Source: Desulfuromonadales bacterium
Lineage (GTDB): Bacteria > Desulfobacterota > Desulfuromonadia > Desulfuromonadales > Geopsychrobacteraceae
Direction: 5' to 3'
Length of the DNA stretch: 64,000 bases
NCBI GenBank assembly: GCA_016931615.1
Contig: JAFGEL010000072.1
Coordinates: forward strand, 1 to 64,000
Each line of letters begins with the position of its first letter. The first letter of the stretch is position 1. The notes beneath the pieces were generated by a model. That model saw nothing but the letters and a program-made list of their open reading frames with translations, was not told the origin of the DNA and did no database searches. Of the stretch, positions 52,475 through 58,408 are shown one piece after another. Both the position numbers and the translations under genes were made by a program.

Positions 52475-55153
52475 ATGACCCAGATCCCCCTACACCATCT
52501 CGCTGAAGAAGAACTTCAAGACTGGCTTGACGCGCTTGACGGCTTGAGCCGGGAAAAAGGCGACGAAGGGGTTCGCGAAATTCTGCGGCAACTCCAGAGT
52601 CACGCCATGAGCAAAGGTGTCCAGCTCAACGAGGCCACCCTGAACACGCCCTACGTCAACAGCATTCACTGGACCAGACAACCGGCCTATCCTGGCGACT
52701 TGGAACTGGAAAAGAAAATCGAGAACATCATTCGCTGGAATGCCATGGCGATGGTCCTGCAGGCCAACGATGCCGGAACCGGGGTTGGCGGGCACATTGC
52801 CACCTACGCTTCAGCAGCAACCCAGATGGAAGTCGGTTTTCATCATATATTCCGAGCTCCCGGTGAAAATTACGGAGGGGATCTGCTGATCGTCCAGCCT
52901 CATGCGTCTCCCGGTGTTTACGCCCGAGCCTTTCTCGAAGGAAGCCTGTCAGAGCAGCAGCTGAAAAATTTCCGCCGCGAGCTCGAGCCCGGCGGGGGGC
53001 TCTCTTCGTATCCACACCCGCGCAATATGCCTGATTTCTGGCAGGTCCCGTGCAGTTCCATGGGACTGGGCACTCCGACTGCCATCTACCAGGCCAGGTT
53101 CATGAAATATCTCGAGAACAGGGGTTTGAAACCTGACAATGGCGGACGGGTCTGGTGCTTTGTCGGAGACGGAGAAACGGATGAACCGGAAGTCCGCGGC
53201 ACCATCAATATGGCCTCGCGGGAAAACCTCGACAATCTGGTGCTGGTCGTCAATTGCAACCTTCAGCGCCTTGATGGTCCGGTGCGCGGTAACGGCAAAA
53301 TCATTCAGGAACTTGAACGCAGTTTCCGCGGTGCCGACTGGAATGTTATCAAGGTCATCTGGGGTGAGGGCTGGGACGGCCTGCTCGACCACGATACAAC
53401 CGGGGCACTCCATCGTCGTATGGAGGAAGCCCTGGATGGCGACTACCAGATGTACTCAGTATCGAGCGGCGATACCCAGCGCGAGCTCTGGGTCGAGAAC
53501 AACCCGGTTCTGCGTGACATGATGTCGTCCCTCAGTGACGAGGAAGTCAGGGCCATCAAGCGCGGCGGGCAGGATCCGAAAAAAATCTATGCCGCTTATC
53601 ATCAGGCCTGTCAAAGCCCACAAAAACCGACTGTCATTCTGATCAAAACCGTCAAGGGAGACAGTCTCGGAGCAGCAGCACAGGGACGCAACACCAGCCA
53701 TCAGAAAAAGCAGTTTTCCCTCGAAGAACGGCTGGACTGCGCAGAACGCTGGGGAATTCCCCTGTCAAAAGAAGATATAGGGAGAGCGCAATTTTATCGA
53801 CCTGCGGAAGACAGCGCAGAGATCCGCTACCTGCGTCAGAAACGCGAGCAGCTCAACGGTTTTCTTCCCCGGCGGAACATTCGCTGCCCCGAGTTAAAAG
53901 CTCCGAAAATCAGCCTGTTCAGCGAGTTTATCCAGCCGACGGCAGAGAGGGAAGCAAGCACGACAATATCTTTTGTACGCATGCTGTCACGTCTGCTCAA
54001 AGACCAAGAGCTTGGTCGTTACATTGTCCCGATTGTTCCGGATGAGGCACGAACGTTCGGCATGGACGGACTGTTCAAGGAAGTCGGTATCTACTCCTGT
54101 GTCGGTCAACAGTACCAGCCGGTCGATGCGGGGAGCCTGCTTCCTTACCGGGAAGCTAAAGACGGGCAGATCCTTCAGGAAGGCATTTGCGAAACCGGGG
54201 CCATGGCCTCATTTCTGGCTGCGGGAACAGCCTATGCAGTCCACGGCATTCCCACAATTCCATTTTATGTATTTTATTCGATGTTTGGCTTTCAGAGAGT
54301 CGGCGATATGATCTGGGCCTGCGCCGATATGCTCTGCCGCGGCTTTCTTTTCGGCGGAACAGCCGGCCGCACAACGCTGAACGGCGAAGGCCTGCAGCAT
54401 CAGGATGGCCACAGTCATGTCCTGGCAACGACTTTTCCCAATTTGCGGAGCTACGATCCGGCCTATGCCTATGAACTAGCCGTCATTTTACGCGATGGCA
54501 TTGAGCGTATGTATCACCATCAGGAAAATGTCTTCTATTACATCACCCTGTACAATGAGAGCTACCCGCAACCGGCCATGCCCAAAGTTAAAAATCTGGA
54601 ACAACAGATCATCAAGGGAGCCTACTGCCTGAAAGAGGCCGAACCTCAAGCTGAACAAAAGCATGCCATCCATCTTCTGGCCAGCGGGGTCATGATTCAG
54701 CAAGCTCTCCGTGCTGTAGATCTGCTGGCGGGATACGGCTTGGCAGCCCATGTCTGGAGTGTAACCAGCTATTCGGAACTCTATCGCAACGCCATAGAAT
54801 GTGAGCGACACAATCGCTTGAATCCTGATCAAGAACAGCTGATCCCCTATCTGCAGGACACATTCAATCACCCGGATGATATTTTCGTTGCCGTCAGCGA
54901 CTATCTCAAAGCTCTGCCCAACAGTATTCGTGCGTGGATTCCCGGGCCCATGACGGTTTTGGGAACCGATGGTTTCGGCCTGAGTGATTCACGCGAATCG
55001 TTGCGCAGTTTCTTTGAAGTCAGTGCCGAACAGATCGCCTTTGCCGCCCTGGAACTGCGCTATCGTCAGGGTTTGCTGAGTCAGAAAGAGTTACTGTCAA
55101 TCAGGGCAAAACTGGGCATTGATCCCCACAAACAGGACGCCGCGGCTCGTTGA
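52475..55153 (+). CDS. aceE: Pyruvate dehydrogenase E1, homodimeric type
   Basis: Start at MTQIPLH; NTPYVNSIHWTRQPAYPGDLELEKKIENIIRWNAMAMVLQAND; VWCFVGDGETDEPEVRGTINMASRENLDNLVLVVNCNLQRLDGPVRGNGKIIQELE TPP motif. Confidence 0.95.
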   Translation: MTQIPLHHLAEEELQDWLDALDGLSREKGDEGVREILRQLQSHAMSKGVQLNEATLNTPYVNSIHWTRQPAYPGDLELEKKIENIIRWNAMAMVLQANDAGTGVGGHIATYASAATQMEVGFHHIFRAPGENYGGDLLIVQPHASPGVYARAFLEGSLSEQQLKNFRRELEPGGGLSSYPHPRNMPDFWQVPCSSMGLGTPTAIYQARFMKYLENRGLKPDNGGRVWCFVGDGETDEPEVRGTINMASRENLDNLVLVVNCNLQRLDGPVRGNGKIIQELERSFRGADWNVIKVIWGEGWDGLLDHDTTGALHRRMEEALDGDYQMYSVSSGDTQRELWVENNPVLRDMMSSLSDEEVRAIKRGGQDPKKIYAAYHQACQSPQKPTVILIKTVKGDSLGAAAQGRNTSHQKKQFSLEERLDCAERWGIPLSKEDIGRAQFYRPAEDSAEIRYLRQKREQLNGFLPRRNIRCPELKAPKISLFSEFIQPTAEREASTTISFVRMLSRLLKDQELGRYIVPIVPDEARTFGMDGLFKEVGIYSCVGQQYQPVDAGSLLPYREAKDGQILQEGICETGAMASFLAAGTAYAVHGIPTIPFYVFYSMFGFQRVGDMIWACADMLCRGFLFGGTAGRTTLNGEGLQHQDGHSHVLATTFPNLRSYDPAYAYELAVILRDGIERMYHHQENVFYYITLYNESYPQPAMPKVKNLEQQIIKGAYCLKEAEPQAEQKHAIHLLASGVMIQQALRAVDLLAGYGLAAHVWSVTSYSELYRNAIECERHNRLNPDQEQLIPYLQDTFNHPDDIFVAVSDYLKALPNSIRAWIPGPMTVLGTDGFGLSDSRESLRSFFEVSAEQIAFAALELRYRQGLLSQKELLSIRAKLGIDPHKQDAAAR

Positions 55154-56325
55154 AGGACCTTGCGATGAATAATACGACCATCATGCCGGACATGGGTGAA
55201 AACCTCACCAGTGGGACCATCACTCAGGTTTTTGTATCACCTGGTGACAACGTCGACATCGGAACCCCTCTGATTGAAGTTGAGGCGGATAAAACCCTTG
55301 TCGAAATTCCCTCTGACGCAACTGGAATCATTGAAGAAATCATGGTGTCCGCCGGAGATCGGATCACTGCCGGGGACCGGATTGCCGTTGTGGCAACACA
55401 GCCGAGTCCCCACCGGAACCATAATAAGCAATCTCAGCCTTCAGCAGCCCGCTTCAACGAACTTCAAAAAAGAAAGGATCAGCCCAAGAAAATCACAACA
55501 TCGGGACAATCACAAACATCAGCTGAATCTGTCCCTTCACGAGGAACCTGTTACGCCGGACCTTCCGCTCATCGTTTAGCCCGTGAGCTCGGCATCAACC
55601 TCGATAGGGTAGCGAGCTTGTCGACCGATCAGAGAATCTCCACGGCAGATATCAAAAATTACGTTCGGAAGAAGCTTTCCGAAACAGCGGGTACAGACAT
55701 CGCTCCACAACCGCTGAGGGGAGATCATCAACTGTTCAGCCATCAGCTGAAAGCCGACATAACGCGATTGGAAGCCGATCGTTCGCGGATCAATCAGCCA
55801 AGTCAACCTCACTCCATTTCACTCGAGTCTTTCCTCATTCGGGCGATAGGGCAAATCCTCAGGAAGAATCCTTTAACAGCCGCGACTGAAGAACCAGCCC
55901 GGGAGAGCCGGGCTGATCTGACCGTGGTTCTTAGAAATTCACTGGACTTTGGATATTCCGTCATAAAACAGGTTGATCAGCTGCCGCTTCATGAGCTTGA
56001 AAACCGGCTTCAGCAGGATCATGGGACAACATCTCACTGGCCCCCGCCCTCTTTGCCACACGAACCACAAGTCATCTACTCCAACTTGTCCCAAGCTGAA
56101 CGGGAACAGCTCTTCAGCGGGACTCCTCGAAAAAGTGCGATTTTCATCACTACCGACGAACCTTTCATTGAAAAAGAGGACCAGAGGGCGACTCAGAACA
56201 AAAAGACCGCACTGAACCTTACGCTGTTTTGTGATCAAACCCTCGTCAGCGGCTTCGAGGCAACTGAGTTTCTCGAAAAACTCAAAAGGCTCCTTGAGAA
56301 TCCTGTTCTGCTGGCTCTTCAATGA
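55150..56325 (+). CDS. Lipoyl-domain / PSBD / E2-like protein with degenerate acyltransferase motif
   Basis: Lipoyl domain (IEVEADKTLVEIPSDATGII), PSBD (GPSAHRLARELGINLDRV...RISTADIKNYV), E2-like C-terminus (LNLTLFCDQTLVSGFEATEFLEKLKRLLENP); overlaps aceE stop by 4 nt. Confidence 0.85.
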   Translation: MKDLAMNNTTIMPDMGENLTSGTITQVFVSPGDNVDIGTPLIEVEADKTLVEIPSDATGIIEEIMVSAGDRITAGDRIAVVATQPSPHRNHNKQSQPSAARFNELQKRKDQPKKITTSGQSQTSAESVPSRGTCYAGPSAHRLARELGINLDRVASLSTDQRISTADIKNYVRKKLSETAGTDIAPQPLRGDHQLFSHQLKADITRLEADRSRINQPSQPHSISLESFLIRAIGQILRKNPLTAATEEPARESRADLTVVLRNSLDFGYSVIKQVDQLPLHELENRLQQDHGTTSHWPPPSLPHEPQVIYSNLSQAEREQLFSGTPRKSAIFITTDEPFIEKEDQRATQNKKTALNLTLFCDQTLVSGFEATEFLEKLKRLLENPVLLALQ

Positions 56326-56425: not shown

Positions 56426-58408
56426 ATGCATTATCTTATTGTTGAGCAGCAATCACCAGCGCCCGAAAACCTCTCGGAGCTGACCAAAGAACTGGCTCAC
56501 AAGCATCAGCTTGATCCCTACCAGTGTCGGCAACGACTTGTCGGTCAGGGTCTATCATTGCTGGCCAAGGGCCCGCGGGAAACCCTGGAAAAGATTTCCC
56601 CGCTGCTGACCTCGGCCAAGGTGATCCATTCGGTCGTCAAACCAAGCAAACCGGAGTATGCCCCGCAGAGAATTCGCAACCTGCAAATCACGCCGGAGCA
56701 GATATCTTTCGATTGCCGGGAAAAAACCGTAATATTTCCCAAGGGGGCTCACATTCTGGCTATTTTTGCCGATCTTTCCGGCACATTAGCCGACAAAAGC
56801 ATCCAGCAGCTCCTCTCCGGCAACAGCTATTTTGGACGTAACGCTACCCCCCGTATGGATCGGAACAAAGTCTCTAAAACCATCCTTCAGGGCCGGCCCG
56901 TTCTGGATCTCTACCGCTTGAGCAACCGCCTGGAGATTACTGATGCCGTGCGGATCTTTCCCGGAAAGTTTGATCCCAAAGGGCTGGGTCCCAAAGCGAC
57001 CCTCAGCAGCAAACAAAACCTGCTGCAGATTCTCAACCTGGCCGAAGAATATGCCACTCAGCTTCATCTTTTTCATGATTTCGGACTGGTCAATCTGCCC
57101 GGTTGCACGTTACACCGTGACGATCCCGACAATCCGGAAACACAACGCCATAACCTGATCAGCCTCGCCCGCTACGGCTGGCTGATGAGTGATCTACTAC
57201 AAGCACAGAAACAACAACCTGACCCGCAGGGGCAATCTCAAGCGGACCTGCCCAGCGTTGTGGCCATGGCCATGGCTGCCCAGAACCCGGGCCTGGCGGG
57301 AGAACCTGGTCAGGATCCCATCCATTCACTGGCTGAGGAGCTGATGAAAGATGTTCAGCCCGCCACAAATGAAGATAGCGCTGAAGAACGACAGAACAAT
57401 AAACCGGTGGGGCTCCCTGCCCCACCCCAGGCAAAACCCCTCCCGGCCTGGTCAAAGCCGCGTTTCTGGATCGGTACTGCAGGCTCCCTGACGATCATCG
57501 CAGGATTTATGCTTTTCAATCTGGCTGACAACCGATGGCTGAATAAAGCCGCCTACCATGCCTTTGCCTCCGGCACCATCCCCCTGATGGTTGCCGCTGC
57601 GATGTTCTGGTCTGCCTTTTACTTTTTACGTTTGAAACGTCAGATTGAAAACACGCCCACCAGTCGCATCCGCTCCGTCGCCATGGGTATGGTCGAAGTC
57701 AAAGGCCGGGCGGTACGCAAATTTGCCTTGCTTTCGCCGATGTCACACACACCCTGTGTCTTTTACCGGCTGACGAAATTCCGTCGTGAACGCAATAACC
57801 AGTGGAAAGTCTCCAGTGTCAGCAGCAGCGCCAACGTGCCGTTTGATCTTGAAGATGACACCGGTCGGATTGAGATTAACCCTTCGGGCTGCCGCGTCAG
57901 TGCCGGCACCAGACAGGAAGGAAGCTCGGGACAGGTCGGCCTGATCCATCTCAGCGACAATGTCGATGATAAATGGGTTGAAGAAATCATTGTTGACGGC
58001 ACCCTGCTCTATGTACTGGGCTTTGCAGCAGCGAAAGCCCCGTCAGGGCCTTCCCTGCAGGCCAAAAAGACCGCGGCGTTACGTGAGCTGAAACGCAATC
58101 CGCAACAGCTGAAAAAATTTGACAAAAATGGCGATGGTGTCATTGATGCCGATGAATGGGATGAAGCCAGAGCCGGGGTCGAAACCGACATCATGCGTGA
58201 GAACCTGAAAGATCGATCTGAACGGAAAAAACAGCAGGATCATATCGTCATCGGCAAAAAGAAAGGGCGGCCATTGATCATCGCTGAAACCCATTCAGAA
58301 GATCATTTGACCGCACGCTATCTTTATTACAGCATCCCCCTGTTTGGTGCTGCGGCACTGGCGACAGGCGGGGCAATCTATCTGTTGATCAACTATCTGC
58401 AAACATAG
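56426..58408 (+). CDS. Membrane protein with GIDE-type (MULAN-like) domain and embedded EF-hand
   Basis: TM pairs flanking IRSVAMGMVEVKGRAVRKF...SHTPCVFYRLTKFRRERNNQWKVSSVSSSANVPFDLEDDTGRIEINPSGCRV (GIDE-like); canonical EF-hand loop DKNGDGVIDADE; adjacent to lemA. Confidence 0.75.
   Translation: MHYLIVEQQSPAPENLSELTKELAHKHQLDPYQCRQRLVGQGLSLLAKGPRETLEKISPLLTSAKVIHSVVKPSKPEYAPQRIRNLQITPEQISFDCREKTVIFPKGAHILAIFADLSGTLADKSIQQLLSGNSYFGRNATPRMDRNKVSKTILQGRPVLDLYRLSNRLEITDAVRIFPGKFDPKGLGPKATLSSKQNLLQILNLAEEYATQLHLFHDFGLVNLPGCTLHRDDPDNPETQRHNLISLARYGWLMSDLLQAQKQQPDPQGQSQADLPSVVAMAMAAQNPGLAGEPGQDPIHSLAEELMKDVQPATNEDSAEERQNNKPVGLPAPPQAKPLPAWSKPRFWIGTAGSLTIIAGFMLFNLADNRWLNKAAYHAFASGTIPLMVAAAMFWSAFYFLRLKRQIENTPTSRIRSVAMGMVEVKGRAVRKFALLSPMSHTPCVFYRLTKFRRERNNQWKVSSVSSSANVPFDLEDDTGRIEINPSGCRVSAGTRQEGSSGQVGLIHLSDNVDDKWVEEIIVDGTLLYVLGFAAAKAPSGPSLQAKKTAALRELKRNPQQLKKFDKNGDGVIDADEWDEARAGVETDIMRENLKDRSERKKQQDHIVIGKKKGRPLIIAETHSEDHLTARYLYYSIPLFGAAALATGGAIYLLINYLQT

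Follow-up and report, generated by a model that had tools for sequence, protein, structure and literature searches.

An apparently maintained pseudo-acyltransferase of the pyruvate dehydrogenase E2 type beside a divergent aceE in a Desulfuromonadales bacterium

A pyruvate dehydrogenase E2-like protein (here called E2X), encoded directly downstream of aceE in a Desulfuromonadales bacterium, has lost its catalytic motif and looks like a maintained, folded pseudo-acyltransferase. Our analysis favours, with modest confidence, a catalytically dead E2 paralogue that has been retained for structural and carrier functions. This scaffold or carrier reading, raised in an initial annotation of the locus, is supported by intact E2s and Lpds elsewhere in the genome, by erosion confined to the core, and by the retention of both the reading frame and a hydrophobic core. 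The stretch analysed (the window) comprises 64,000 nucleotides, positions 1 to 64,000 of the forward strand of contig JAFGEL010000072.1 (assembly GCA_016931615.1).

The gene had been placed at 55150-56325 on the forward strand. That frame is open and its translation holds LNLTLFCDQTLVSGFEATEFLEKLKRLLENP, with the altered motif inside it; the start is better assigned to ATG 55165 than to TTG 55150, given the AAGGA 7 nt upstream and the alignment of relatives from the ATG, and 11 nt then separate the aceE stop from the E2X start (Table 1). The lipoyl and peripheral subunit-binding (PSBD) domains had both been described as intact, which holds for the lipoyl domain with its predicted lipoyl-lysine and largely for the PSBD, where both Arg positions are kept and the Gly loop before R157 (GTxxxGR) reads SLSTDQR. 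The upstream aceE is present as described; aligned to 1l8a, its product keeps the active-site residues (the equivalents of E. coli E1 H106, H142, Y177, H407, E571, and H640) and the GDGE TPP motif. Alignment with relatives suggests ATG 52475, rather than TTG 52463, as its start.

Table 1. Features of the aceE-E2X locus (positions in the window)
Feature	Position	Strand	Basis
aceE, homodimeric-type pyruvate dehydrogenase E1, divergent subfamily, intact	52475..55153	+	TIGR00759, 1213.6 bits (cut-off 859.9)
Shine-Dalgarno AAGGA, 7 nt before ATG 55165	55153..55157	+	Sequence
E2X, E2-like apparent pseudo-acyltransferase, 386 aa + stop	55165..56325	+	Sequence, Pfam, alignment
Lipoyl domain, residues 1-78	55165..55398	+	PF00364, 67.5 bits
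Predicted lipoyl-lysine K43 in EADKT	55291..55293	+	Alignment, sequence
PSBD, residues 126-172	55540..55680	+	PF02817, 22.4 bits (just below the cut-off of 23.7); YAGPSAxRLARELG conserved
Eroded catalytic (core) domain, residues 190-386	55732..56322	+	dN, predicted fold, Foldseek
SNLS replacing SNLG (active-site Ser segment)	56080..56091	+	Alignment, sequence
DQTLVSG (residues 357-363, counted from ATG 55165) replacing DHRxx[D/N]G	56233..56253	+	Alignment, sequence

Alignment with 17 intact canonical E2 cores, taken from this genome and from relatives, bears out the earlier observation that the catalytic motif is destroyed: His is replaced by Gln, Arg by Thr, and the D/N of xxDG by Ser. The damage to the active site exceeds what had first been listed. 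The catalytic domain, already noted as short, has smaller gaps and a 14-aa in-frame deletion, which removes IPHAW along with the greater part of helix 1; the GLLVPV and PEVAILG segments are also absent, and SNL keeps its Ser but not the Gly that normally follows it. No replacement His/Asp pair was found elsewhere in the E2X core in this alignment. The Pfam 2-oxoacid_dh model (PF00198, cut-off 23) gives E2X 35.9 bits in total, mainly over the last 46 residues; a genome-wide scan gives 20.3 bits over those residues (38 with neighbouring stretches), and the five intact E2s of the genome score 208-280 bits in the same scan. The AceF equivalog models score E2X far below their mark (PRK11854, 116 versus 722 bits; TIGR01348, 114 versus 552 bits).

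A search of the genome for a second canonical E2 and for Lpd, as had been proposed, found five intact E2 domains and two canonical Lpds above the curated cut-off; E2X as the organism's sole E2 was accordingly rejected. With three aceE genes also present, the cell should be independent of the E2X copy. As noted previously, no lpd adjoins E2X, and the two canonical lpd genes lie elsewhere. The three aceE genes are that of the window, a copy 77% identical to it (C57:33208), and a third, divided by a contig break (the end of C102 and C12), that forms part of a canonical aceE-aceF-lpd operon. The second of these adjoins an E2 (421 aa, motif DHRVINGAD; hereafter the C57 E2) that is the closest paralogue of E2X in the genomes searched, but has an intact catalytic core.

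Divergence was compared between E2X on the one hand and the C57 sister E2 and two relatives on the other, and among these relatives. In the lipoyl domain, dN is 0.45-0.49 between E2X and the relatives and 0.42 among the relatives; the corresponding values are 0.41-0.55 and 0.50-0.57 in the PSBD, and 0.96-1.10 and 0.38-0.47 in the core. This pattern points to acceleration, or erosion, of E2X in the catalytic domain only. The dN/dS ratio of the core is uninformative because synonymous sites are saturated. Neutral decay was simulated from the C57 E2 to the observed 24-25% identity (1000 runs, indels ignored): about six stops were expected, and at most 1 run in 1000 was stop-free. E2X has neither stop nor frameshift across about 200 codons at 25% identity, its indels are all in frame, and its contrast between hydrophobic and polar columns (0.70 versus 0.09) was matched in none of the 1000 runs. 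A frame and a hydrophobic core kept beyond neutral expectation suggest that frame and fold were selected during much of the divergence, and it is this combination that gives E2X the look of a maintained, folded protein.

The same evidence makes it unlikely, though by no means absurd, that E2X is simply a redundant duplicate under relaxed core selection, with lipoyl domain and PSBD still serving E1 and the core drifting to loss without a new role. The uninterrupted frame, the hydrophobic-core pattern, and the strong conservation of the adjoining aceE (dN 0.13-0.18) all speak against such a duplicate, even if five intact E2s would make it redundant, the erosion is limited to the core, and the Gly loop of the PSBD is weakened too. 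Its distribution would also fit: when 44 family genomes were scanned with PF00198, the DQTLVSG-type broken motif turned up in one of them, as E2X itself, and no orthologue sharing it was found, so that E2X appears to be one lineage's case; this weighs against the carrier-subunit reading. Plasmid records contained distant matches only, all under 60% identity.

Structure prediction for full-length E2X was modest (pLDDT 65). The core domain, modelled from an 18-row alignment of intact E2 paralogues that biases the result towards their fold, was predicted to have the E2 fold (pLDDT 83.4, pTM 0.83), and Foldseek placed the predicted core at a TM of about 0.7 to E2 cores. The absence of most of helix 1 may block the normal trimer.

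On the 3' side of E2X lie genes for a GIDE-like membrane protein, LemA, and a DnaJ-domain protein, a block that is conserved in G009, the genome of a family relative. The membrane protein (56426-58408 in the window) is 660 aa long, and its GIDE-like and EF-hand matches are weak. Neither an lpd nor a CoA-linked gene is adjacent to E2X, an arrangement that, together with an intact E1 and lipoyl arm and a lost transferase, would suit a separate E1-lipoyl carrier module delivering acyl groups or electrons to a non-E2 acceptor, with no transfer to CoA. We regard this as improbable, since no acceptor gene is found nearby and the downstream block also occurs in the relative, whose E2 core is intact.

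In the E. coli E2p structure, the corresponding residues His603, Asp607, and Ser551 lie around the sulfur that reacts, and the His is held by Asp602 and Arg604 (PMC8421416). In E. coli E2o, changing His375 to Ala, Cys, or Asn leaves 0.5-2% activity without harm to assembly, and Asp379Ala leaves 9.5% with assembly likewise unaffected (PMC5986005). Several such losses occurring jointly make useful transferase activity of E2X unlikely. E2o keeps 59% activity when the His is replaced by Trp and 13% with Gly, and E2X retains the Ser of SNL; even so, a weak or altered acyltransferase in which Gln and Ser stand in for His and Asp seems highly improbable, given that His375Asn, the tested variant nearest to Gln, has 0.5% activity remaining (PMC5986005) and that E2X has lost the D/N, the Arg, and the GLLVPV segment along with helix 1. 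The broken motif and the scaffold or carrier role survive from the original interpretation; nothing observed speaks for the different mechanism of acyl transfer that it also suggested. Compensating assembly errors or frameshifts scrambling an intact E2, for which the draft state of the genome (2.94 Mb, 118 contigs, 89% complete) might be invoked, were rejected as barely credible, because a tblastn search with intact E2s finds a single continuous frame at the locus, with no good match in the others, and the motif changed through in-frame substitutions.

As a structural and carrier subunit, E2X would use its PSBD to hold the dimeric E1 encoded beside it, perhaps with Lpd as well, and its lipoyl arm would take the acetyl group from AceE. 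An intact E2 would then receive the acetyl group in trans at its active site and complete the transfer to CoA. For this, the E2X core might assemble together with E2 trimers, or the group might be exchanged from lipoyl to lipoyl. The likeliest partner would be the C57 E2, whose gene accompanies the sister aceE. There is a precedent in E. coli E2o, where a free lipoyl domain functions with a separate catalytic domain (PMC5986005). Like protein X (E3BP), E2X would add arms and binding sites and no transferase sites. An E3-binding protein, as first suggested, is one option only; the PSBD seems to keep its generic bacterial form, with no preference for E3 over E1 apparent.

E3BP (protein X, PDHX) of animals and fungi is, like E2X, an E2 paralogue with lipoyl domain, PSBD, and core that accompanies an intact E2; it is recognised by an E2-like topology combined with the lack of the catalytic His in its core (PMC10156792). 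E2X has both features, its PSBD scoring slightly under the Pfam cut-off, and it combines PF00198 homology with the absence of the DHRxx[D/N]G motif and of a curated AceF score. In contrast to E3BP, it is bacterial, is encoded beside a homodimeric-type E1, and appears to come from a different E2 duplication. Sequence comparison does not indicate common descent with the eukaryotic protein: among the genomes searched, the C57 E2 comes closest to E2X, and solved eukaryotic protein X chains match E2X in the N-terminal lipoyl/linker region only. The design of E2X parallels that of E3BP, but E3-specific binding and incorporation into an E2 core would be putative, and we do not file it in that family. 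Canonical bacterial AceF (aceE-aceF-lpd) shares the lipoyl-PSBD-core order, the position after aceE, and the predicted core fold, whereas E2X has lost the His, the Asp/Asn, the Arg, and most of helix 1, and has no adjacent lpd. Corynebacterium has a bacterial hybrid complex with shared subunits (PMC7568260, PMC10415282); its OdhA/AceF system is a bacterial precedent for a 2-oxoacid dehydrogenase subunit that lacks a domain and uses that of a partner, although in OdhA it is the lipoyl domain that is missing and the transferase that is retained, the reverse of E2X.

More tentatively, E2X may represent protein X in a bacterial form: an E2 paralogue, now inactivated, would assemble together with an intact E2 and add lipoyl arms and E1 (or E3) sites, and it would have arisen independently of mitochondrial E3BP within a complex with a homodimeric-type E1. 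No report of a bacterial inactive E2 was found in the open-access literature searched, which does not prove absence. If the proposal is true, cores that mix active and inactive E2s occur outside mitochondria as well. The reason why E3BP lost catalytic activity is stated to be unanswered for mammals (PMC10156792); an independent bacterial case with an active sister in one genome would let the loss be studied in a simple system.

The aceE genes of the window, of contig C57, and of two family relatives (G102 and G009) group in one clade (support 100/100) that is clearly separate from the aceE usually found in the order. Searches for aceE in 136, 277, and 396 genomes yielded only three further E1s of this subfamily beyond that of the window; among 277 genomes of the class it is present in 3, as four copies, two of them in this genome. 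The E2 partners of the other E1s are intact (DHRVING in C57 and G009; up to the contig end in G102), which likewise counts against the carrier-subunit reading. The window and G009 have the GIDE-like/LemA/DnaJ block in common, so the two loci are probably positional orthologues. The G009 partner E2 (L081:10347-11288, G009:C2) has 313 aa, with a PSBD and an intact core and without a lipoyl domain, a mirror image of E2X. In both C57 and G009, the subfamily aceE lies beside genes for a CaiB-family CoA-transferase and an HMG-CoA-lyase-like protein. The C57 aceE-E2 operon (L041:1195-12838, G000:C57) is located among LeuC/LeuD-like, TRAP transporter, CaiB-type CoA-transferase, and HMG-CoA-lyase-like genes; this cluster possibly serves degradation of a C5-branched dicarboxylate to acetyl-CoA and pyruvate, and a route with these end products would explain the presence of a dedicated pyruvate dehydrogenase.
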